From: Synechococcus sp. LTW-R
Lineage (GTDB): Bacteria > Cyanobacteriota > Cyanobacteriia > PCC-6307 > Cyanobiaceae
Direction of reading: 5' to 3'
Assembly (NCBI RefSeq): GCF_014217875.1
Contig: NZ_CP059060.1
Coordinates: forward strand, 868,001-932,000
Length of the DNA stretch: 64,000 nt
The notes under the pieces were generated by a model. It ran no database searches and was not told the DNA's origin. It was given only the letters and a program-made list of their open reading frames with translations. How positions within the stretch are numbered: the stretch's first letter is position 1; each line of letters starts with the position of its first letter. The position numbers and the translations under genes are program-made. Shown piece after piece: positions 6,264 through 23,688 of this stretch.

Positions 6264-6851
6264 CTACTCGCCGGTACGATTGATTTCGATCACCCAGCTG
6301 CCGAGGTAGCCAGAGATCGGAACCGCACCCGGAGCCTGGCCGAGGGCGTTGAACTGATACATGCCTGCGCTCGGGTTGAAGATCTGCATGTAAACGCCGA
6401 TGGTGGTCCCGGTCGGCACAGGCCGATCGGGGAAAATCTCAATCGCGGTGCCATCGGGGGCGACCTCCACCGTCGCCGGGATGGTCTCAAGACAACGGGT
6501 CTTTGAGGCAATGCCGCCCTGCTTGATCGTGCAAAGACTCACGTCAGAAGCATTGATCTTGGCGTCGAAATAGGACGGGACTGAAATCGCGAGCTTGAGC
6601 AGGGCGGTTTTGCGGTCTTTCGGACCCAGCACCAAGTAGTAATCCGAGCGAGCTTCCGCATCCGCCAGGGTCAAGAAGTAGTAGAGCTTTCGGAAGTCGC
6701 GAGAGTTATCCCAGCGAAACTCGAAGCCGGAACTGGAGCCTGCCTGCGCGTAGGCGACTGGTGCTGACAAGGGAGCTGCAAGTGCCAAGCAAGAGGCCGA
6801 GAGCGGCAGCAGTCGTTTGATCAACTGGGTGGATCTTTTACGCATGGCCAA
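6264..6851 (-). CDS. DUF2808 family secreted protein
   Basis: A 195-residue exported protein. The N-terminus is basic and then hydrophobic, ending APVAYAQA, a good signal peptidase I site near residue 36. The mature part, with FRWDNSRDFRKLYYFLTL and the PDRPVPTGTTIGVYMQIFNP segment, matches the cyanobacterial DUF2808 family, whose role is unknown but which is periplasmic or envelope-located. An internal ATG two codons later (6845) is an equal candidate for the start. It is convergent with the glycosyltransferase. The four-repeat Pho-box region at 6971-7011 lies about 120 bases upstream and could also serve this gene. A second DUF2808 gene lies at 45194-45760. Confidence 0.8.
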   Translation of the reverse strand: MAMRKRSTQLIKRLLPLSASCLALAAPLSAPVAYAQAGSSSGFEFRWDNSRDFRKLYYFLTLADAEARSDYYLVLGPKDRKTALLKLAISVPSYFDAKINASDVSLCTIKQGGIASKTRCLETIPATVEVAPDGTAIEIFPDRPVPTGTTIGVYMQIFNPSAGMYQFNALGQAPGAVPISGYLGSWVIEINRTGE

Positions 6852-6970: not shown

Positions 6971-7011
6971 CAGTTAAGAAGCGGTTAAGGATGAACAAAG
7001 ATACATTTAAG
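6971..7011. promoter_or_regulatory. Putative multi-repeat Pho box before porin
   Basis: On the + strand, 8-mers CAGTTAAG (6971), CGGTTAAG (6982), GAACAAAG (6993, degenerate) and CATTTAAG (7004) recur exactly every 11 bases. Read on the minus strand these become CTTAACTG, CTTAACCG, CTTTGTTC and CTTAAATG, the Pho-box form bound by PhoB/SphR. A -10-like AATATT lies at about 7019, pointing at the porin, which starts at 7154. Confidence 0.65.
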
Positions 7012-7153: not shown

Positions 7154-8842
7154 ATGAAACTGTTCCAGAAGCTTCTTCTGGCGCCTGCAGCTCTGGGCCT
7201 TCTGGCTCCTGTCGCTGCAAACGCCGCTGACGTCAACCTCTCCGGCTTCAGTGCTTACGGCACCGAAGAGCAGGTGACTTCGATCACCCAGTTCTCCGAC
7301 GTGCAGCCCACCGACTGGGCTTATCAGGCACTGAGCAACCTGATCGAGCGCTACGGCTGCGTCGCTGGCTACCCCAACGGCACCTTCCGCGGCAACCGTG
7401 CGATGACCCGCTACGAGGCGGCCGCACTGCTGAATGCTTGCCTCGATCGGATCACTGAAGTGACCGACGAGCTCAAGCGTCTGATGAAGGAATTCGAGCG
7501 CGAGCTCGCCATCCTCAAGGGCCGCGTTGACGGCCTCGAGGCCCGCGTGGGCGAACTGGAAGCAACCCAGTTCTCCACCACCACCAAGCTCGAAGGCGAC
7601 TACTACTGGGCCCTGGGCGGCGTCACCGCCACCGGCGGCAAGAGCAACAGCGCTGGTACCGGCAGCCGCGACTGGTACAACAAGAACTACGGCGCCCTGC
7701 ACATGGTGTACGACGCTCGCTTGAACCTCAAGACGAGCTTCACCGGCAAGGACCTGCTCTACACCCGCCTGCGCGCTGGCAACTTCGACAACAGCCCCTT
7801 CGACGGCAAAGGCTTCAAGCTGACCAAGTTTGACAAGGCCGAAGCCACCGATAACGCCATCAAGGTCAGCCGCCTCTACTACCGCTTCCCCGTCGGTAAA
7901 GAGTTCAAGTTCGCTGTTGGCCCCGTTGCTCGTAACACCGAGTTCCTGGGCACCAAGCCCTTCTATTACAAGGGTTGGTCCGGTCTGGACTTCTTCCAGC
8001 TCTTCGGTGCTCCTGGCACCTACAACAAAGCCACCGGCTCCCTGGTTGGCGCGATCTGGAAGCAGAAAGTGAAGAAGGGCCAGCCCTACTTCACCGTTTC
8101 CAGCAGCTATGTCACCTCAGAAGGCAACGACGGTGACAAAGGCATCATGACGGCCAAGAGTGAGGCCTCGACCCTGACTCAGCTGGCCTACAACGCCAAT
8201 CAGTGGAAGGCCAGCTTCGGCTGGAACTACACCCAGTGCGGTGACGACACCACCCGTGAGGGCACGGAAGCCACCATGGTTGACATCCCTTGCAATGGCA
8301 TCGATGGAAACATCGTTGATGCCAAAACCAAGGGCAACCGCAACGGCTTCGCCGCGACTCTTGCCTGGCGTCCGAAGAACACCGGCCTGATCCCCTCGAT
8401 CAGCACCGGCTGGGGTTACAACGCTTACTCCTACAGCACCCCTTACACCGGCAGCAAGCCTGCTCAAACAGGTGCTGCTCTGAAGAGCAGCGGTAAGCCC
8501 AACGTCGCTGGCAACCTGAATGTCATGAACATTCAGTCCACCCAGTCCTGGACTGTGGGTCTGCAGTGGGATGACGCCTTCGCCAAGGGCAACACTGGTG
8601 GCTTTGCTATCGGTCAGCCCACCTTCGTGACCAGCACCCGCAACGGCACCACCCCGTTCGATGCTGGCTACGTGATGGAAGGCTTCTACAAGTTCCAGGT
8701 CAGCGACAACATCGCTGTGACCCCGGTGCTCTTCTACATGAGCAACCCCAGCTCTGCTGGTGCCGGCTACGCCCAGACCTCCGACCAAGGCTCCAACCTC
8801 GGCGTCTTCGGTGGCGCTCTGACCACCCGCATCAAGTTCTGA
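7154..8842 (+). CDS. som: SLH-domain outer-membrane porin (Som/iron-uptake porin type)
   Basis: A 562-residue outer-membrane protein. The signal peptide MKLFQKLLLAPAALGLLAP ends near ANA-AD. Then comes an SLH domain (about 45-110, with FSDVQPTDWAYQALSNLI and TRYEAAALLNACLD) that binds peptidoglycan-linked polymer, a short coiled coil (about 115-150) and a C-terminal OprB-like beta-barrel ending in phenylalanine. The ATG at 7154 was preferred over the earlier in-frame start because a GTGAGG ribosome site and a proper signal peptide follow. The gene stands alone, with a Pho-box region upstream and a strong terminator downstream. Together with phoBR 350 bases on, this suggests a phosphate-stress porin. 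Fine specificity is inferred. Confidence 0.93.
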   Translation: MKLFQKLLLAPAALGLLAPVAANAADVNLSGFSAYGTEEQVTSITQFSDVQPTDWAYQALSNLIERYGCVAGYPNGTFRGNRAMTRYEAAALLNACLDRITEVTDELKRLMKEFERELAILKGRVDGLEARVGELEATQFSTTTKLEGDYYWALGGVTATGGKSNSAGTGSRDWYNKNYGALHMVYDARLNLKTSFTGKDLLYTRLRAGNFDNSPFDGKGFKLTKFDKAEATDNAIKVSRLYYRFPVGKEFKFAVGPVARNTEFLGTKPFYYKGWSGLDFFQLFGAPGTYNKATGSLVGAIWKQKVKKGQPYFTVSSSYVTSEGNDGDKGIMTAKSEASTLTQLAYNANQWKASFGWNYTQCGDDTTREGTEATMVDIPCNGIDGNIVDAKTKGNRNGFAATLAWRPKNTGLIPSISTGWGYNAYSYSTPYTGSKPAQTGAALKSSGKPNVAGNLNVMNIQSTQSWTVGLQWDDAFAKGNTGGFAIGQPTFVTSTRNGTTPFDAGYVMEGFYKFQVSDNIAVTPVLFYMSNPSSAGAGYAQTSDQGSNLGVFGGALTTRIKF

Positions 8843-9216: not shown

Positions 9217-9921
9217 ATGATCAACGTCACCGCTGCCACCAACACAGCGCGCCTGTTGGTGGTCGAAGACGACGACACCATCCGTGAGACGGTCTGCGAG
9301 GCGCTGGAGCTCGAAGGCTTTAGCGTCACTCCGGCGACCAACGGCCAGAGCGCCTGGGATCGCCTGAAGAAAGAACCGTTTGAGCTGATCGTTCTCGATG
9401 TGATGCTCCCGGGCATCAACGGCCTTGATCTCTGCCGCAAATTGATCGAACTGCCGCAGCGGCCCCTCGTGCTGATGGTCAGCGCCCGGGACACCGAAAC
9501 CGATCGCGTGCTCGGGCTCGAGCTGGGGGCCGATGACTACCTAGTCAAACCCTTCGGCATCCGGGAACTGGTGGCCCGCTGCCGCGCCCTGCTCCGGCGC
9601 CATCAACCGAGTGAGCAACAGGCGAGCGAACTGAAGACGGAGAACCTGAGCCTGTTCCCGGCGGAATGCCGCGTCTGCCTGGACGGGCTCGAGCTCAAGC
9701 TCTCCCCCAAGGAGTTCAAGTTGCTCGAGCTCTTCATGCAGCACCCCAAACGGGTCTGGAGCCGCGAGCAATTGATTGAGCAGGTCTGGGGGTTCGACTA
9801 CATCGGTGACAACAAAACCGTGGACGTCCACATCCGCTGGTTGCGCGAAAAGATCGAAGAGGACCCCTCCAAACCCACGAAGCTGGTGACGGTGCGGGGC
9901 TTTGGCTATCGCTTCGGATAG
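9217..9921 (+). CDS. phoB: Phosphate response regulator PhoB (OmpR family)
   Basis: A 234-residue response regulator. The receiver domain (1-125) has acidic residues EDDD near 17-20, the phospho-acceptor aspartate near 61 (LIVLDVMLPG) and the conserved lysine in DDYLVKPFG. The C-terminal winged helix (about 140-234) is of OmpR/PhoB type (LSPKEFKLLELF, VDVHIRWLREKIE, GFGYRFG). ATG 9217 follows CAGGG. It is followed after 3 bases by the histidine kinase phoR, and then by the convergent ptrA; this order is the known phosphate-control locus of picocyanobacteria, which supports PhoB over other OmpR members. It should bind the 11-base-spaced Pho boxes found through this island. Confidence 0.9.
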   Translation: MINVTAATNTARLLVVEDDDTIRETVCEALELEGFSVTPATNGQSAWDRLKKEPFELIVLDVMLPGINGLDLCRKLIELPQRPLVLMVSARDTETDRVLGLELGADDYLVKPFGIRELVARCRALLRRHQPSEQQASELKTENLSLFPAECRVCLDGLELKLSPKEFKLLELFMQHPKRVWSREQLIEQVWGFDYIGDNKTVDVHIRWLREKIEEDPSKPTKLVTVRGFGYRFG

Positions 9922-11067: not shown

Positions 11068-11697
11068 TCAGGCCGCTTCGCTGAGGGGCAGGTTGCTGAT
11101 CACCAGCTGGCGCTGACCGTTGAGCTTGAGCCAGCCCTCTTCCCGCAGCAACCCCAAGACCCGGGTCACGGTGACGCGGGTGGTGCTCAAGGCACCGGCA
11201 ATGTCCTGATGGGTCAGGCGCAGGTTGAGGCGCAGGCCCTCCTCACAGGGCTGGCCGTACTCCTCGGCGAGCAACTCGAGGAAGCCGCGCACCCGATCTT
11301 CCACCCGGCGCAGTCCGAGCAAGGCGATCAAGGCTTCGGACTGACGGGTGCGGCTGATCAAGGCCAACATCAAGGTGCTGACCAGATGCGGGGTCTGCTG
11401 GATCTCCTCCATCGGCAGGCAGAGCAGATCGCAATCGCTCAGGGTCGTGGCCTCGTAGAGGTCCAGGTTGCTGAGGGGCTCGCCGAAGGGTTCATTCGGA
11501 CCGGCAAGAGCCAGGAGAACATCTTCCCCCTGCTCGTTCATCGAGCTCAGCTTGACCATGCCGCGCGCCACCAACCAGACGTGGTTGCGCAGCATCGGCA
11601 CGCGGCTACCGGCGGTCAGGGTGACCAGATCGCGGCGCTGAAAGGTCTCTTCGAGCATTCCGCGAAGGCTCGAGGAACGGCTAGGCGTGAAAACCAT
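11068..11697 (-). CDS. ptrA: CRP/FNR-family regulator PtrA
   Basis: A 209-residue CRP-type regulator. The N-terminal cyclic-nucleotide-like beta-roll (about 15-115) is followed by the dimer helix and a C-terminal winged helix whose recognition segment reads LTHQDIAGALSTTRVTVTRVL. The usual cAMP-binding arginine/serine pair is not evident, so another signal or none may be used. Its position beside phoBR matches ptrA of marine Synechococcus, reported as a second-tier activator during phosphate stress. A Pho box (11772-11790) lies 75 bases upstream, so PhoB should activate it. Confidence 0.85.
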   Translation of the reverse strand: MVFTPSRSSSLRGMLEETFQRRDLVTLTAGSRVPMLRNHVWLVARGMVKLSSMNEQGEDVLLALAGPNEPFGEPLSNLDLYEATTLSDCDLLCLPMEEIQQTPHLVSTLMLALISRTRQSEALIALLGLRRVEDRVRGFLELLAEEYGQPCEEGLRLNLRLTHQDIAGALSTTRVTVTRVLGLLREEGWLKLNGQRQLVISNLPLSEAA

Positions 11698-11771: not shown

Positions 11772-11790
11772 TGGTTAAGCGTCGGTTAGC
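11772..11790 (-). promoter_or_regulatory. Putative Pho box upstream of ptrA
   Basis: On the minus strand GCTAACCG and CTTAACCA lie 11 bases apart, close to the box before the GAPDH-arsJ pair (CCTAACCG, CTTAACCA). It overlaps the last codons and stop of the CHAD gene and lies 75 bases before the ptrA start. Confidence 0.7.
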
Positions 11791-13019: not shown

Positions 13020-13268
13020 TTAAAGAGCGCGTAACACTGGCGCGGAATCTGGTGATGACGAGGCAGCCACACGCTGAATCTGAGTCACCGCGACAAGGCA
13101 AAGACCCTGAATCAAGAGGCAGGAGAGTGAAGACCGGAGCCAGCTCACGCCCATCCAAAAGCAAGTGCTGTATTGCAACAGAAGAGTCACTCGCGCAGCC
13201 GTGATCAGGGCTACAGACAAGAGAATGGTGAGCCACAAAGCAAGGCCAGGGCGCCTTAACCGGTCCAT
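13020..13268 (-). CDS. Possible small membrane protein (82 aa)
   Basis: An 82-residue frame divergent from ppk. It carries two hydrophobic stretches (LALWLTILLSVALITAA and SLSCLLIQGLCLVAV), suggesting a two-helix membrane protein. Its ATG at 13268 lies inside the putative Pho box 13255-13273, which weakens the case for it being a gene, or would make the start site lie downstream. No family is recognised. Confidence 0.35.
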   Translation of the reverse strand: MDRLRRPGLALWLTILLSVALITAARVTLLLQYSTCFWMGVSWLRSSLSCLLIQGLCLVAVTQIQRVAASSSPDSAPVLRAL

Positions 13269-13273
13269 AACCT
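13255..13273 (+). promoter_or_regulatory. Putative Pho box upstream of ppk
   Basis: CTTAACCG (13255) and CATAACCT (13266) lie 11 bases apart on the coding strand, 35 bases before the ppk start codon. Confidence 0.6.
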
Positions 13274-13284
13274 TGGCCGGTTAA

Positions 13285-13308
13285 AGGAGTGCTGGGCATC
13301 CAGCACGA
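13285..13308 (+). promoter_or_regulatory. Hairpin between ribosome site and ppk start
   Basis: The Shine-Dalgarno AGGAG (13285-13289) is 18 bases from the ATG at 13308, too far for normal initiation. The gap is filled by a perfect 7-bp hairpin, GTGCTGG-gcat-CCAGCAC (13289-13306). Folding would bring the two signals close. Confidence 0.6.
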
Positions 13309-15416
13309 TGGACGGAGACGCGGTAAAAGCGAAGCGGTATATCAATCGTGAGTTGAGCTGGATTGCCTTCAATCAACGGGTTCTTAGTCTTGCCTTGCAG
13401 AGCAAGTCACCGCTGCTTGAGCAAGCCAAGTTCAGCGCAATTTTCAGCAATAATCTCGATGAGTTCTTTATGGTCAGGGTGGCCTCCCTGATCGCGCAAC
13501 TGGAATCCAATTCCAGCCGACTCAGCATTGATGGACGCTCGGCGGCTGAACAATTACAAGCGATCCACCAACAGCTAGGTCCCCTCCTCAATCAGCAGCA
13601 CCACCATCTCCAGCATCGGCTTCTGCCCCAACTGGAGCAGCGAGGCATTGGCATCCTGGACTACCCACAACTGTCCAGACGTCAAAAGGATTGGCTGACG
13701 AGTTATTTCCAGGCCCAGATTCAGCCGGTCCTTACGGCGACACGACTGAATACACCAGGAAAACCATTTCCCTTCATCAGCAGCCTGAGCCTCAACCTCG
13801 CCGTTGAGATTCAAGGTTCGGACCTAGGCGGGAACGAACTGATTCGCCTGAAGCTTCCCACAAAGAACATTCCGCGCTGGATCACCCTTCCGGTGGCCTT
13901 GCACGGAGAACGCGCTGGTGCCCTTCACCTCTGCGTCCCGCTCGAGCAGGTGATCCGCCACAACCTCAGGGCCCTCCTTCCAGGACGCCGGATCAGCAGC
14001 ATCAGTCTCTTCCGGGTCACCCGTGACGCCGATCTCGCCCTCCAAGAAGAGGAGGCCGAGGATCTGATGGAGGCGATGCAAAGCAGTCTCCGGCGCAGAA
14101 AAGCCGGTGGCGACGTCGTGCGCCTGGAACTCAGCGGCGACACCCCCCGCAGGGTTCAACAGCAACTGATCGCTGGCATGGGGGTGGACAGCAATTGGGT
14201 GCAACGGGTGGACGGATTCCTCGGTCTCGAGGACCTGATGGCGCTGCAGGGCGTCCATGCACCAGACCTCAAGGACCGCCCCTTCCATGGCTCAACCCCC
14301 GCCCCCCTCAGGGACTGCCAGTCTCCAGAAGAGGGACGACACGCTCGCGAGAGCATCTTTACGGCGATTCGACGGGGTGATGTCCTCCTGCACCATCCCT
14401 TTGATCGCTTTACATCCACGGTGGAGGAATTCATCCACCAAGCCGCCTGCGACCCGGACGTTCAAGCGATCAAGATCACGCTGTATCGCGTCTCCAAGGA
14501 TTCCCCGATCATCGCCAGCCTGATCGCTGCGGCGGAACGCGGCAAACAGGTGTTGGCACTCGTCGAACTCAAGGCACGCTTCGACGAAGACAACAACATC
14601 CGCTGGGCACGGCAACTGGAGCGCTCAGGGGTGCATGTGGTGTATGGGGTGATCGGCCTCAAGACCCACACCAAAATTGCGCTGGTGATCCGACGTGAGC
14701 GTGAGAAAGGAGCGCTTCGGACCTATAGCCACGTCGGCACCGGGAACTACAACTCCAAAACAGCCGCGCTCTACACCGATCTGGGCTTGCTCTCAGCGGA
14801 TGCCGACTTGGGGCAAGACCTGATCAGCCTCTTCAACTACCTGACCGGCTTCTCCAAACAGAGTGCCTACCGGAAATTGCTCGTGGCGCCGACAACCCTC
14901 AGGGAACGGATGCTGGAGCTGATCGAGCGAGAAATCGAGCACGCCCGTGCCGGGCGCCGCTGCGGGATCAAAGCCAAGATGAATGCATTGGTGGATCAAC
15001 GCCTCATCGACAAGCTCTATGAGGCCTCAACGGCAGGGGTTCCGGTCGAGCTGATTGTGAGGGGGGCCTGCAGCTGCACCAGCGGAGTCGCTGGGCTGAG
15101 TGAGCAGATCAGGATTCGCAGTGTGGTGGGCCGCTTTCTTGAACACTCACGCGTCTTCTGGTTCGAGAACGACAACGCGCCCCAGGTCTGGCTGGGAAGC
15201 GCCGATTGGATGCCTCGCAACCTGGACCGCAGGGTGGAGGCCGTCGTACCGATTGAGCAGCCCGACCTGGTGGAACGGCTACGGGAACTACTGACGCTCT
15301 ACATCGAGGACAGCTCCGCGGGCTGGCTGCTTCAGGCCGACGGCCGCTACAGCCCACCCGGGCAGGAAAAGCCAGGTAGCAGCGCCCAGGAGCAGCTGAT
15401 GCAGAGCAAGCGATGA
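13308..15416 (+). CDS. ppk: Polyphosphate kinase PPK1
   Basis: Full-length PPK1, 702 residues. The start YINRELSWIAFNQRVL is the N-terminal family hallmark. The two HKD-like catalytic segments are present: GLKTHTKIALVIR near 450 and SHVGTGNYNSKTA near 474, where the histidine is the autophosphorylated residue, plus SADWMPRNLDRRVEA near 631. It reversibly transfers the gamma-phosphate of ATP to polyphosphate at the membrane. It overlaps chrA by 4 bases at its end. A Pho box and an unusual start-site hairpin lie upstream, so phosphate stress and translation may both control it. Confidence 0.97.
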   Translation: MDGDAVKAKRYINRELSWIAFNQRVLSLALQSKSPLLEQAKFSAIFSNNLDEFFMVRVASLIAQLESNSSRLSIDGRSAAEQLQAIHQQLGPLLNQQHHHLQHRLLPQLEQRGIGILDYPQLSRRQKDWLTSYFQAQIQPVLTATRLNTPGKPFPFISSLSLNLAVEIQGSDLGGNELIRLKLPTKNIPRWITLPVALHGERAGALHLCVPLEQVIRHNLRALLPGRRISSISLFRVTRDADLALQEEEAEDLMEAMQSSLRRRKAGGDVVRLELSGDTPRRVQQQLIAGMGVDSNWVQRVDGFLGLEDLMALQGVHAPDLKDRPFHGSTPAPLRDCQSPEEGRHARESIFTAIRRGDVLLHHPFDRFTSTVEEFIHQAACDPDVQAIKITLYRVSKDSPIIASLIAAAERGKQVLALVELKARFDEDNNIRWARQLERSGVHVVYGVIGLKTHTKIALVIRREREKGALRTYSHVGTGNYNSKTAALYTDLGLLSADADLGQDLISLFNYLTGFSKQSAYRKLLVAPTTLRERMLELIEREIEHARAGRRCGIKAKMNALVDQRLIDKLYEASTAGVPVELIVRGACSCTSGVAGLSEQIRIRSVVGRFLEHSRVFWFENDNAPQVWLGSADWMPRNLDRRVEAVVPIEQPDLVERLRELLTLYIEDSSAGWLLQADGRYSPPGQEKPGSSAQEQLMQSKR

Positions 15417-19990: not shown

Positions 19991-20971
19991 TCACTTGCCG
20001 ATCTTGTTCACAGCAGCGCGGGCTTTCGAGAGGATCGCGCCCTTGAGGGGAACGAAACCGAGGTCGTCTGCCTTGGCCTGAGCCTGGTCGCTCAGCATGT
20101 AGTTGAAGGTCTTCTTGATGGTGTCGGCGTTGGCACCATTGCCCTTGGCATAGGCCAGAGCCCAGGTCAGGGTCGCGATGGGATAGGCGCCCTTGGCGGT
20201 CGGGTTGGGGTTCGTGCCAGCCAGGTTCTGATCGAGCTTGATGCCGTTCAGAGCTTTCGCACCGGAGCTGTAGCTGGGCTTGATGAACTCACCCGATTTG
20301 TTCTGCAGAGCAGCAGCCTTGACAGCACCACGGATGTAGGACTGGTTGACGTAACCAATGGCGCCTTGCTTGTTAGCGATCACGCCAGCAACGCCGGAGT
20401 TGCCCTTGGCACCCACGGCGTTCGCACCAGGCCACTTCACGGACTTACCAGCGCCGAGCTTCCACTCAGGGGAGAAAGCGGAGAGGGAGTTGGTGAAGGC
20501 CTTGGTGGTTCCGGAACCATCCGAGCGGTGCACCCAGGTGATGGCGCCGGCGGAGCAGCCCAGGTCCTTCCAATCGGTGATCTTGCCGATCGCCACTTGG
20601 ACGGCTTGCTTCTGGGTCAGCTTGAGGTCACAGCCGGGCTTGTTGTAACCGAAGGCGATGGTGCCGCCCACCATGGGGATCTGCACCAGACCACGGGTCA
20701 CCTTGGCGATGTCCTTGGCCTTCATCGGATCGTCAGAGGCCGCGAAGTTCACGGTCTGGTCGATGAAAGCCTTACGGCCGGAGCCGGAGCCAACGGCTTG
20801 GTAGTTGACCTGGGGGCCACCAGCCTTCGCCAGGTCAGCGAACCAGCGCTGATAGATCTTGGCGGGGAAGGTTGCGCCAGCAGCACTGAGGCGGTCTGCG
20901 GCCGAGGCGGACATGCCGGTGCCGACGGCCAGCAGGGAGCCGATCAGAAGGGCCTTCTTCGCGAAGGTCAT
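19991..20971 (-). CDS. pstS: Phosphate-binding protein PstS
   Basis: A 326-residue periplasmic phosphate-binding protein. The signal peptide ends MSASAADR near residue 22-24. The mature protein carries the phosphate-contact motifs LSAAGATFPAKIYQRW, QAVGSGSGRKAFIDQ, FAASDDPM and VHRSDGSGTTKAFTNSL. ATG at 20971 follows ACCCCCAAGG; the 14 residues upstream in frame are not signal-like. It captures phosphate for PstCAB. It is set apart from pstC by tandem terminators and is preceded by an extended Pho box of four repeats, as expected for a gene that must be made in excess. It may bind arsenate poorly, which ties it to the ars genes beside it. Confidence 0.97.
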   Translation of the reverse strand: MTFAKKALLIGSLLAVGTGMSASAADRLSAAGATFPAKIYQRWFADLAKAGGPQVNYQAVGSGSGRKAFIDQTVNFAASDDPMKAKDIAKVTRGLVQIPMVGGTIAFGYNKPGCDLKLTQKQAVQVAIGKITDWKDLGCSAGAITWVHRSDGSGTTKAFTNSLSAFSPEWKLGAGKSVKWPGANAVGAKGNSGVAGVIANKQGAIGYVNQSYIRGAVKAAALQNKSGEFIKPSYSSGAKALNGIKLDQNLAGTNPNPTAKGAYPIATLTWALAYAKGNGANADTIKKTFNYMLSDQAQAKADDLGFVPLKGAILSKARAAVNKIGK

Positions 20972-21023: not shown

Positions 21024-21064
21024 GCGTTAGGAGCGGGTTAAGGCTGCGTGAACATTGCGTGAAT
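21024..21064 (-). promoter_or_regulatory. Four-repeat Pho box upstream of pstS
   Basis: On the minus strand, ATTCACGC, GTTCACGC, CTTAACCC and CCTAACGC follow one another at exact 11-base steps (21057, 21046, 21035, 21024 on the + numbering). The block ends 53 bases before the pstS start and reaches back to the arsR stop codon. Confidence 0.75.
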
Positions 21065-21375
21065 CAGCAGCAGGACTGGGCTTTTGACGGCGCAGTTGTC
21101 TGCAAACGCTCAAGCCAATCGCCCAACTCCGCGATCGCCTCTGGCCGCAGGCGGTAGTAGATCCAGCGTCCTTGCACTCGGGAGTCCAGCAGGCCCGCCT
21201 CTCGCATCACCTTGAGGTGAAAGGAGAGCTTGGACTGGGCCACACCCATCTGCTCGGTGAGCTCACAGACGCAGCGCTCTCCAGCCGCCAGCGCCAGCAC
21301 CACCTCCAGGCGCCGGGGGTCGGCCAAGGCCTTGAACAGGGGGCAGAGCTCCTGGGCAGTCGTGACTGGGGTCAT
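21064..21375 (-). CDS. arsR: ArsR-family arsenic-responsive repressor
   Basis: A 103-residue winged-helix repressor. The metalloid-sensing motif is ERCVCELTEQ, with two cysteines at about 35 and 37 in helix alpha3, and the recognition helix is in QSKLSFHLKVMREAGLL. The C-terminus ends in a Cys-Cys pair. The ATG at 21375 follows a run of upstream residues that are not family-like. It is divergent from the GAPDH-arsJ pair across an 82-base region with a palindrome (21418-21431) that is the likely operator. Arsenite or antimonite binding should release it. The stop codon touches the pstS Pho box. Confidence 0.92.
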   Translation of the reverse strand: MTPVTTAQELCPLFKALADPRRLEVVLALAAGERCVCELTEQMGVAQSKLSFHLKVMREAGLLDSRVQGRWIYYRLRPEAIAELGDWLERLQTTAPSKAQSCC

Positions 21376-21388
21376 GGCTCGGGCCGCG

Positions 21389-21407
21389 CCTAACCGGACC
21401 TTAACCA
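21389..21407 (+). promoter_or_regulatory. Putative Pho box before GAPDH-arsJ pair
   Basis: CCTAACCG (21389) and CTTAACCA (21400) are 11 bases apart on the + strand, 51 bases before the GAPDH start and upstream of the ArsR palindrome. Confidence 0.65.
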
Positions 21408-21417
21408 ATCAAGAAAC

Positions 21418-21431
21418 CTTGATGCATCAAG
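21418..21431. promoter_or_regulatory. Likely ArsR operator palindrome
   Basis: CTTGATGCATCAAG is a perfect 14-base palindrome. It is flanked by further TTGATT/AATCAA half-sites (21407-21413 and 21432-21444), the pattern expected for a SmtB/ArsR site. It sits between the divergent arsR and GAPDH genes. Confidence 0.75.
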
Positions 21432-21457
21432 ATTGATTGATTGATCGGGTGCGACGC

Positions 21458-22462
21458 ATGCGGATTGGCATCAACGGCTTCGGGCGGATCGGACGGCTGG
21501 TCTGCCGCGCCCTCTGGGGACGACCCGGCATCGAGATCGTTCTGATCAACGACAACCAGGCCACCGCTGAATCCGCTGCGCACCTGCTCTGCTTCGATTC
21601 CGTCCATGGACGCTGGGATCGTCAGGCGGAGGCGACCAGCGCATCCGAACTGCTGATCGACGGACAACGCCTGGGCTTCAGCCGCTGCGCCGCCCCCGCC
21701 GAGGTGGCCTGGGCGGCCGCCGGGGTGGAACTGGTGCTCGAGTGCAGTGGGCGCTTCAAGACCACGGAGACCCTCGAGCCCTACTTCAGCCAGGCCGGGA
21801 TCAAGCGTGTGGTGGTGGGCTGCCCGGTGAAGGGAGCCTTGAACGTCGTCTACGGGATCAACCATGCTCTCTTTAACCCAAGCGAACACCGGCTGCTGAC
21901 GGCGGCGTCCTGCACCACCAACTGCCTGGCTCCGATCGTGAAGGTCGTCCACGAGCAGTTCGGCATTCGGCACGGCTCGATCACGACCCTGCACGACGTC
22001 ACCAACACCCAGGTCGTCGTTGATGCCTTCAAGAGCGACCTGCGGCGCTCACGCTCCTGCCTGCAATCGCTGATCCCGACAACCACCGGTTCAGCCAAGG
22101 CGATCGCGATGATCTTCCCGGAACTCGAGGGCAAGCTCAACGGCCATGCCGTCCGCATTCCCCTGCTGAACGCCTCCTTGACCGACGCGGTCTTTGAGCT
22201 GGAGCGACCCACCAGCACAGAAGCGGTCAATCAAGCCTTCCAAGAGGCCTCCCAAGGGGCGCTCCAAGGCATCCTCGGCTACGAAACCAGACCTCTGGTC
22301 TCGGTCGATTACGTCAACGACAACCGCAGCGTGGTGGTCGATGCCCTCTCGACGATGGTGGTCGACGGCACCCAGCTCAAGGTCTACGGCTGGTACGACA
22401 ACGAGTGGGGCTACAGCTGCCGGATGGCCGATCTGGTCTGCCACGTGATCGAGCAGGGATGA
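21458..22462 (+). CDS. gapJ: Ars-linked glyceraldehyde-3-phosphate dehydrogenase
   Basis: A 334-residue GAPDH. The NAD-binding start is [18 protein letters not shown] and the active-site motif [11 protein letters not shown] has its catalytic cysteine near 152. In ars operons a dedicated GAPDH joins arsenate to glyceraldehyde-3-phosphate, giving unstable 1-arseno-3-phosphoglycerate, which ArsJ exports. ATG 21458 was chosen over an in-frame TTG seven codons earlier because RIGINGFG must begin at the N-terminus. It overlaps arsJ by 4 bases. A glycolytic role is less likely in this context. Confidence 0.93.
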
Positions 22463-23688
22463 GCAGCCTCACCGCCCTGGAGCAGTACCAGCGGGTCACC
22501 GCGAACTACTGGGCCTTCACCCTGACGGATGGGGCCCTGCGGATGCTGGTGGTCTTCCACTTCCACCAGCTGGGCTACACCAGCTTGGAGATCGCCTTTC
22601 TTTTTCTCTTCTACGAATTCTTCGGGATCCTCACGAACCTCTATGGCGGCTGGCTCGGGGCTCGTTTTGGCCTGCGCCTGACCCTCTGGCTGGGCACCTG
22701 GCTGCAGATCGGCGCCCTGCTGATGCTCATTCCCGTGGCGGACTCCTGGCCGAAGTGGTGGAGCGTCGCCTATGTGATGGCCGCCCAGGCCCTGAGCGGG
22801 ATCGCCAAGGACCTCAACAAGATGAGCGCCAAAAGCGCGATCAAGACCGTCGTCAAGAGCAACGACGGCGATCAGCAACTCTTCCGCTGGGTCGCACTCT
22901 TGACCGGCTCGAAGAACGCCCTGAAAGGAGTGGGCTTCTTCCTCGGTGGCGTCCTGCTGACGGGCCTGGGCTTCAACGCCTCAGTGGGCGTAATGGCCGC
23001 GGGATTAATGCTGGCCTTTCTCGTCACCCTGGGGCTGCCCGCGGACATGGGGCAGATGAAACGCAAGCCCAAGGTCCTCTCCCTGCTCTCCAAACGCGAA
23101 GGCATCAACGTCCTCTCCCTGGCGCGGCTGTTCCTGTTTGGCGCCCGCGATGTCTGGTTCGTGGTCGCCCTGCCGGTCTTCCTGGAGACGGCCTTGGGCT
23201 GGCGCTTCTGGGAAGTCGGCAGCTTCATGGGTCTCTGGGTGATCGGCTACGGCATCGTCCAGGGGTCCGCGCCAGCCCTGCGCCGCAGCTGGGGGCAGAC
23301 CAGCAGCCCGGGCGTCAGCGCCGTCCAGTTTTGGAGCGCACTCCTCACCGCCATTCCCGCGTTGATCGCCATCGCCCTCTGGCGGCAGGTGGCGGATCCA
23401 GGGCTGGCGATCGTCGCTGGACTCGCCGCCTTTGGCGTGGTCTTTGCCATGAATTCCTCGATTCACAGCTACATGGTTCTGGCCTACTCCGACAGCGAGT
23501 CGGTGAGCCTCGATGTCGGCTTTTACTACATGGCCAATGCCGCAGGACGCCTACTCGGAACGCTGCTCTCCGGGGCGGTCTTCCTGATCGGCGGGCTTCA
23601 GGCCTGCCTTTGGTGCTCCTCGGCGATGGTTGCTCTGGCCTGGCTCTTCAGCCTGCACCTGCCGCCGCCGCATGCGGTTCAAAGCTGA
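22459..23688 (+). CDS. arsJ: ArsJ organoarsenical (1-arseno-3-phosphoglycerate) exporter
   Basis: A 409-residue MFS permease with about twelve membrane helices. The N-terminus [17 protein letters not shown] and the loop [19 protein letters not shown] are typical of ArsJ. It exports 1-arseno-3-phosphoglycerate made by the GAPDH in front of it; the compound then breaks down outside to arsenate. Its ATG overlaps the GAPDH stop (ATGA). Export of this product protects cells that take arsenate in through Pst. The 3' end overlaps the convergent 110-residue gene by 10 bases. Confidence 0.93.

Follow-up and report, generated by a model that had tools for sequence, protein, structure and literature searches.

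A predicted composite promoter with a Pho box abutting ArsR operators at the arsenate-export genes gap-arsJ of Synechococcus sp. LTW-R

Introduction

Arsenate enters cells by way of phosphate uptake, so that phosphate-poor water exposes cells to it exactly when their phosphate gates are open. In Synechococcus sp. LTW-R the genes of a predicted arsenate exporter lie close to a cluster of phosphate genes and are separated by a short intergenic region from a divergent gene for an ArsR repressor, which raises the question of whether phosphate and arsenic signals are combined at this promoter and, if so, by what logic. A preliminary description of this DNA had proposed that the export genes take both PhoB and ArsR input, and that phosphate hunger would arm detoxification in advance of arsenic build-up. 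Here the locus is analysed in the window, that is, the whole 64,000-nucleotide stretch examined (bases 868001-932000 of a genome that consists of one contig of 2,415,533 bp), and compared with its counterparts in related genomes; positions are those of the window. Cross-control between Pho and arsenic regulation is already established in Agrobacterium (PMC7965956) and Halomonas (PMC7533571). The literature cited by PMC number is represented here by excerpts.

The gap-arsJ locus and its genomic setting

The arsR gene (21064-21375, minus strand) encodes an ArsR/SmtB repressor of 103 amino acids that matches NF033788 (HTH_metalloreg) at 101.7 bits and PF01022 at 62.5 bits. Divergent from it are two adjacent genes on the plus strand: gap (21458-22462), encoding an ArsJ-associated glyceraldehyde-3-phosphate dehydrogenase (NF033735, 537.7 bits against a cut-off of 450), and arsJ (22459-23688), encoding an MFS organoarsenical efflux permease (NF033734, 582.2 bits against a cut-off of 400), with the start of arsJ overlapping the stop of gap by 4 bp. 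Both proteins score above the curated cut-offs and represent the gene pair of the GAPDH-ArsJ arsenate export pathway; arsenate export is the function predicted for them, with either 1-arseno-3-phosphoglycerate or arsenate as the exported species. The coordinates, strands and family matches agree with the divergent arrangement first described, and the region between arsR and gap spans 82 bp (21376-21457). The closest named records with ArsJ are from Synechococcus, Cyanobium and Prochlorococcus.

The gene order in this part of the window is a PhoB-like and a PhoR-like gene, ptrA, ppk, a chromate transporter gene, pstB-A-C, pstS and arsR, followed by the divergent gap-arsJ. The best NCBIfam model for the PhoB/SphR-like response regulator (9217-9921, plus strand) is TIGR02154 PhoB at 227.5 bits, which is below the cut-off of 296.2, and the PhoR models also score below their curated cut-offs for the PhoR-like gene; the location of these two genes beside pst, ptrA and ppk supports their identity. 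Three members of this region have Pho boxes of their own: the gene for PtrA, a CRP-family phosphate-stress regulator (11068-11697, minus strand; NF053664, 334.3 bits, cut-off 300), with a box at 11773-11790; ppk, encoding polyphosphate kinase (13308-15416, plus strand), with a box upstream at 13255-13272 on the plus strand; and pstS (19991-20971, minus strand), with a box at 21025-21042 on the minus strand. The stop of ppk overlaps the start of the chromate transporter gene at 15413 (TIGR00937, 238.5 bits). A further strong Pho box, at 6972-6989 on the minus strand, precedes a small frame (6264-6848, minus strand) for which there is no NCBIfam match; this box has the top matrix score in the window, yet it is itself part of the training set. 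The small frame is a candidate phosphate-stress gene, and the frame divergent from it (7154-8842, plus strand) is porin-like by our own reading of the sequence.

A Pho box between arsR and gap

On the plus strand at 21389-21407, dyad search and matrix score identify two 8-bp CTTAACC-type units joined by a 3-bp linker (CCTAACCG gac CTTAACCA), both units being found with 0 mismatches. SphR/PhoB boxes of cyanobacteria have the same 8-3-8 form (PMC1906773), and the site is the sole zero-mismatch match to CYTAACC-N4-CYTAACC in the 2,415,533-bp genome. Dyads with one mismatch number six genome-wide, four of which lie inside the 64-kb window (2.65% of the genome), namely those upstream of pstS (21025), ptrA (11773), ppk (13255) and the small frame (6972). 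When up to two mismatches are allowed there is no genome-wide excess (34 dyads vs 78 for a reversed-pattern control), so that only near-perfect Pho sites are meaningful. Spacing the 7-mers by N3, an incorrect period, gave 291 matches vs 744 in the control; the 11-bp period was used instead.

The site was also scored with a matrix whose training set, 19 sites elsewhere, excluded gap promoters and included the four other strong window sites. Its score of 23.5 compares with 13.4 for the next window site outside the training set, and it was not reached once when the 82 bp were dinucleotide-shuffled 20,000 times. The motif is validated independently of the arsR/gap site by the pstS genes of the window and of the genus regions holding pstS, 13 of 19 of which have a dyad (at most one mismatch) about 54 bp upstream. 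The Pho box claimed for this intergenic region is thus borne out by a perfect dyad that is unique in the genome. Both Pho units and their spacing are kept in all four genomes of the window clade (the window and its three closest relatives); an initial view that the box was restricted to these four was revised once family scans found it more widely.

In Synechocystis the rule is at least three tandem Pho units, the third of which is described as needed (PMC1906773). Two clear units are found at arsR/gap, which falls short of this rule, and the pstS, ptrA and ppk sites are likewise defined by the dyad alone. A weak possible third unit (AAGAAACC, 21411-21418, plus strand) matches at 3 of 8 letters, lies inside the first ArsR operator and is held with low confidence.

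Tandem ArsR operators and arsenic sensing

Directly abutting the Pho box is a putative ArsR operator of the form ATCAAN6TTGAT (operator 1, ATCAAGAAACCTTGAT, 21408-21423), and a second lies 18 bp from it, start to start (operator 2, ATCAAGATTGATTGAT, 21426-21441). These two, between arsR and gap, are the only exact occurrences of ATCAAN6TTGAT in the 64-kb window, and even with three mismatches allowed the genome has no second tandem pair of this kind. The inverted repeat thus lies in the promoter of arsR itself, and ArsR binding to it is predicted. A similar ATCAA-N6-TTGAT site has reportedly been found for the ArsR of Synechocystis. The palindrome first put forward as the ArsR site, CTTGATGCATCAAG, does exist at 21418-21431, but it is the seam between operators 1 and 2 and is ruled out as the operator, the conserved unit being ATCAAN6TTGAT.

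Conservation was assessed in 121 gap-arsJ promoters, comprising 21 of the genus and, among the matches listed, 100 of the family; the latter are the most similar matches, mostly in rank order, rather than a random draw. Four were dropped (L283, L301, L307 and L333), leaving 117 usable promoters. ArsJ itself is present in 22 of 25 genus genomes and in 299 of the 400 genomes of the family search. Among the matches listed, the exact operator occurs in 110 of 117 gap-arsJ promoters, against a shuffle mean of 0.02, and with up to one mismatch in 113; two operators exactly 18 bp apart are found in 40. The same motif also precedes an arsR-acr3 pair (locus L190).

The ArsR protein has a CVC motif at residues 35-37, as do all 127 relatives whose residues aligned, and this pair suggests As(III) sensing. 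A Vibrio ArsR in which the motif is changed is argued to sense probably As(V) (PMC9601151). The search for a route to As(III) covered two reductase-type families, PF03960 and PF01451; the PF03960 match in the genome is an Spx/MgsR-like protein and the PF01451 match is phosphatase-like and below cut-offs. ACR3 had no match in the window genome in a search that matched 7 of 14 control genomes.

Distribution of the Pho box among related promoters

The 60 bp before the operator were scanned on the coding strand with a matrix derived from published Pho boxes and non-ars genus sites. Among the matches listed, 30 of 113 operator-bearing promoters contain a Pho dyad in this slot, and 83 (15 of 21 in the genus) do not. 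The scores are bimodal, at least 11.0 or, for the next best, at most 1.3, on either side of the 99% null level of 6.0, at which about 1 of 113 would be expected. The dyad starts 19-21 bp before the operator in 29 of the 30; the distance of 16 in the thirtieth (L282) comes from an overlapping operator call. Among the matches listed, Pho promoters occur in eight genera: g1 (6/21), g6 (13/29), g30 (4/6) and g45 (3/13), with one each in g35, g44, g47 and g48. When mapped on a quick GAPDH tree, the Pho label changes at least 5 times on well-supported branches and 10 times in all (26.6 in shuffles); it is clustered, yet has been repeatedly gained or lost.

An opposite-strand control yielded three promoters at the 99% level (L008-L010), with boxes that face arsR. 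At the 95% level it yielded 30, equal to the coding-strand count, and 26 of these are the Pho promoters themselves, which we attribute to the self-complementary TTAA core. When all 260 bp were scanned on each strand irrespective of operators, 41 dyads scoring at least 11 were found, of which 29 are in the slot and 12 are outside it. Seven of these 12 come from three operator-less promoters of genus g34 (L311, L319 and L329), one (L290) lies in the slot of that promoter's second operator, one (L315) overlaps its operator, and three (L271, L008 and L009) are on the other strand.

Several variants deserve mention in their own right. Three of the four operator-less promoters, all of genus g34 (among the matches listed), carry Pho dyads, which in L311, L319 and L329 lie at -70/-81 and on the other strand, with no ATCAAN6TTGAT within one mismatch; in some cases PhoB may therefore act on gap-arsJ with no such operator present, and any gating by ArsR is to that extent not universal. 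In L008, L009, L010 and L021, CTTAACC-like units are present on the arsR-facing strand instead of the gap-facing one, and Pho control of the arsR side is possible there. The L109-L118 promoters, mostly from Prochlorococcus-titled records, have a direct repeat with an 11-bp period about 34 bp before the ArsR operator (CTTAAATATAGCTTAAAT, exact in L115 and present as near copies in the others), which is possibly an AT-rich Pho box.

A second type of site in Pho-less promoters

Promoters without a Pho dyad often have a different palindrome in its place. Of the 83 Pho-less promoters among the matches listed, 47 have GTGTT-N4-AACAC, with up to two mismatches, no more than 60 bp ahead of the operator (shuffle mean 0.7), and 36 have it at exactly 19-21 bp (shuffle mean 0.04). 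In the 30 Pho promoters among the matches listed it is found 0 times in the slot and once elsewhere. An alignment of 46 sites, themselves selected for likeness to the pattern, shows no variation in GTG and CAC. The resulting GTG-N8-CAC palindrome, for example GTGATCCAGAACAC in the Pho-less promoter of L017/G001, looks like a CRP/NtcA-family site, the NtcA site being GTA-N8-TAC. It is a candidate PtrA target, and we offer as a hypothesis that PtrA is its binder.

At up to two mismatches a Pho box lies 90-95 bp upstream of ptrA at 21 of 30 loci, and the ptrA of the window has one as well. In the window and 20 genus regions, slot palindromes (at most one mismatch, within 300 bp upstream) precede gap in seven regions and ptrA in none. 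In 4 of 19 pstS regions (L174, L183, L184 and L185) a palindrome of the same type precedes pstS by 108-122 bp; the palindrome also occurs inside genes, so that these cases lend PtrA mild support. PtrA is present in most census genomes, and its presence or absence therefore hardly separates the promoter classes; four genomes (G005, G018, G024 and G288) have two PtrA-family matches each. At up to two mismatches the palindrome is found in 0 of 20 usable Prochlorococcus-titled loci (L111 and L119, in which the upstream region is cut, were dropped); as a control this carries little weight, given the base composition and the mention of a PtrA-related regulator in Prochlorococcus (PMC10119275).

Composite elements at other genes

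The combination of Pho dyad and operator is also found beyond gap-arsJ. A pattern made of dyad, 1 nt and operator, with up to three mismatches, occurs at 15 places in 14 of 400 genomes, compared with 1 for the control, and these places comprise six gap-arsJ promoters and nine sites beside an SphX/PstS-like gene. The nine sphX-type composites are from five other genera, and the neighbouring gene scores above the TIGR02136 cut-off in all nine; eight are in the orientation of the gene, and the ninth (L191) is opposite, the site there being nearly symmetric. A looser pattern matched 76 of 400 genomes (8 control matches); among the 30 loci listed, 18 are at gap-arsJ, 6 beside sphX and 1 before pstS, and 5 have no recognised neighbour. 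In L211 (G056), where pstS lies beside arsJ, the pstS promoter has a Pho-type unit followed directly by an ArsR-type operator.

The same genes as in the window are found together in cyanobacterial sphX-gap3 and arsR-sphX-gap-arsJ clusters (PMC1906773, PMC9846622, PMC4284471). For sphX-gap3 of Nostoc 7120, Su et al. 2007 predicted Pho boxes (PMC1906773 Table 1). Units 2 and 3 of the published boxes of alr1094 (sphX-gap3) and Ava_3716 (sphX) contain ATCAAN6TTGAT, so that part of the 2007 Pho call may be an ArsR-type operator (PMC1906773). In these published boxes the operator motif falls within units 2 and 3, whereas in the window the Pho dyad and the operator are separate.

Core promoter

A putative -10-like element, CAAGAT, is located at 21428-21433 on the plus strand, inside operator 2. 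Among the matches listed, NANNNT lies 38 or 39 bp from the start of the Pho dyad in 28 of 29 distinct Pho-type promoters (it is also found at 40 in 6 promoters and at 41 and 46 in 1 each), and it lies at 38-40 bp in the nine sphX composites. Pho-less promoters among the matches listed instead have TANNNT 17 bp (39/83) or 35 bp (26/83) after the operator start, 65 of 83 in total, and TANNNT is found at those positions in 0 of the 30 Pho promoters listed. A fixed distance from PhoB to the -10 was rejected as a general rule, as plain Pho promoters do not show the NANNNT spacing; for this reason, and since many of the promoters are related by descent, the -10 assignment is tentative.

Regulatory logic

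Dual PhoB and ArsR input at arsR/gap, as originally proposed, is well supported by sequence: a Pho box of a type validated at Pho genes of the same genome and genus abuts ArsR-type operators. As to how the two inputs are combined, we lean towards a gated composite promoter with AND-like logic, in which strong expression of gap-arsJ would need both phosphate stress and intracellular arsenic. Phosphate shortage would bring phosphorylated PhoB to the dyad at 21389-21407 and would switch on the neighbouring pst uptake genes, through which arsenate would be imported. ArsR, placed by inference on the tandem operators at 21408-21441, next to the Pho box and spanning the probable -10/start region, would block gap-arsJ and its own divergent gene until it has bound arsenic, and phosphate stress alone would produce at most a leaky rise of gap-arsJ. 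With ArsR sites occupying the DNA from the Pho box to the tentative -10, the repressor should override PhoB for as long as arsenic has not displaced it; if the -10 is placed correctly and is covered by ArsR, the repressor must leave before PhoB can act, which yields AND logic. Counting against this reading are the 83 listed operator-bearing promoters with no dyad in the slot, the g34 promoters with dyads and no operator, the sub-cut-off scores of the PhoB-like and PhoR-like genes, the tentative core promoter, the weak third Pho unit, the rise of gap in Nodularia on phosphate limitation, and the outcome of the searches for a route to As(III).

The wiring originally envisaged is an anticipatory one, of OR or additive type, in which PhoB alone pre-arms gap-arsJ and ArsR adds an independent second increase. 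It would gain from the strength and intactness of the Pho box and from the three g34 promoters in which Pho dyads occur without an ArsR-type operator, and a review cites induction of arsB by phosphate starvation in Crocosphaera (PMC4284471). Three phosphate contrasts in Nodularia gave log2 values of 1.57, 2.41 and 0.09 for the ArsJ-associated gap, a rise in two of them, with 0.29, 1.20 and -0.25 for arsJ and -1.21, -1.14 and -0.78 for arsR in the same contrasts; the rise is described on phosphate limitation, and the excerpt mentions no arsenic (PMC9846622). These data leave room for some response to phosphate alone, under a gene order unlike that of the window; the arsenate-related genes of Nodularia were mostly without clear change (PMC9846622). 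Anticipatory arming would require leaky or absent ArsR control, whereas the window operators abut the Pho box and sit between it and the gene, filling the stretch up to the tentative -10, and in Synechocystis the loss of ArsR makes arsBHC constitutive, indicating that ArsR alone can hold an operon off (PMC4010505). Arming by phosphate hunger alone is accordingly not favoured, and we regard it as rather doubtful.

It could also be argued that ArsR alone controls gap-arsJ, the Pho box being a relic of the lineage or a passenger of the neighbouring pst locus. The many operator-bearing promoters with no dyad in the slot and the 5 to 10 changes of the Pho label on the tree would suit this reading; against it, both units and their spacing are kept in 4/4 window-clade genomes, the dyad recurs at a near-fixed distance in eight genera among the matches listed, and a different activator-type site is present within 60 bp in 47 of the 83 Pho-less promoters listed, in 36 cases in the slot itself. 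We consider a relic improbable. Least probable of all, to a degree that leaves it little room, is binding of ATCAAN6TTGAT by a CRP/FNR-family regulator such as PtrA in place of ArsR: the sites of such regulators are also short palindromes, ptrA lies in the same island and a PtrA-related regulator is mentioned in Prochlorococcus (PMC10119275), but the motif accompanies arsR in gap-arsJ, acr3 and sphX arrangements, is confined within the 64-kb window to the region between arsR and gap, and occurs in promoters of Prochlorococcus-titled records, while genus g17 (small genomes, presumably Prochlorococcus) has no PtrA match at E 1e-40.

Comparison with known systems

The gated promoter favoured here has partial counterparts elsewhere. 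In the ars1/pst1-phoB1 region of Agrobacterium tumefaciens 5A, phosphate and arsenic control are interlocked as in the window, and repression by ArsR extends to promoters of the phosphate system that adjoin the ars locus; ArsR1 there acts on the phosphate genes pstS1 and phoB1, whereas in the window both inputs would meet at the arsenate-export operon, and the Agrobacterium ArsR motifs, with one exception, lie mostly 100-150 nt upstream rather than abutting a Pho box (PMC7965956). The aioBA operon of Halomonas sp. HAL1 likewise has a Pho box, bound by PhoB in that organism, before an arsenic-metabolism operon; it encodes arsenite oxidase rather than arsenate export, and the excerpt describes no adjoining ArsR operator (PMC7533571).

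The var operon of Vibrio cholerae (arsR-varG-varH-arsJ) resembles the window in being an ArsR-repressed, arsenate-inducible GAPDH-ArsJ resistance system, for which free arsenate is argued to be the exported species. It differs in its single promoter ahead of arsR, its extra phosphatase VarH and the changed residues in the As(III) motif of its ArsR, and phosphate starvation is unmentioned in the main text (PMC9601151). In Synechocystis, a cyanobacterial ArsR represses the arsenic-export operon arsBHC, as proposed for the window, but arsR is unlinked, the pump is ACR3 and no phosphate input is reported in the excerpt (PMC4010505). The literature search covered mostly open-access papers, and in these neither a promoter with abutting PhoB and ArsR sites nor a PtrA motif at gap-arsJ was found described; this is weak evidence of absence.

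Conclusions

Taken across relatives, the sequences make it possible, though we put this forward tentatively, that picocyanobacteria share a modular arsenate-defence promoter, in which an interchangeable slot for a phosphate-stress activator is followed directly by ArsR operators. Depending on lineage, the slot would hold a PhoB dyad or a GTG-N8-CAC site (perhaps for PtrA, itself under PhoB control), and the cassette of Pho box and ArsR operator would also drive sphX; the arsenic AND phosphate-stress logic would be kept while the activator is swapped. Such a slot swap would point to a motif that PtrA may bind and would be a clear example of one regulator replacing another under unchanged logic, and the operator motif offers an easy way to search picocyanobacteria for ArsR targets. 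The logic at gap-arsJ, whether AND or anticipatory, is testable with one reporter. If both signals are indeed integrated within about 50 bp, this promoter would explain how abundant phytoplankton time a costly detoxification.
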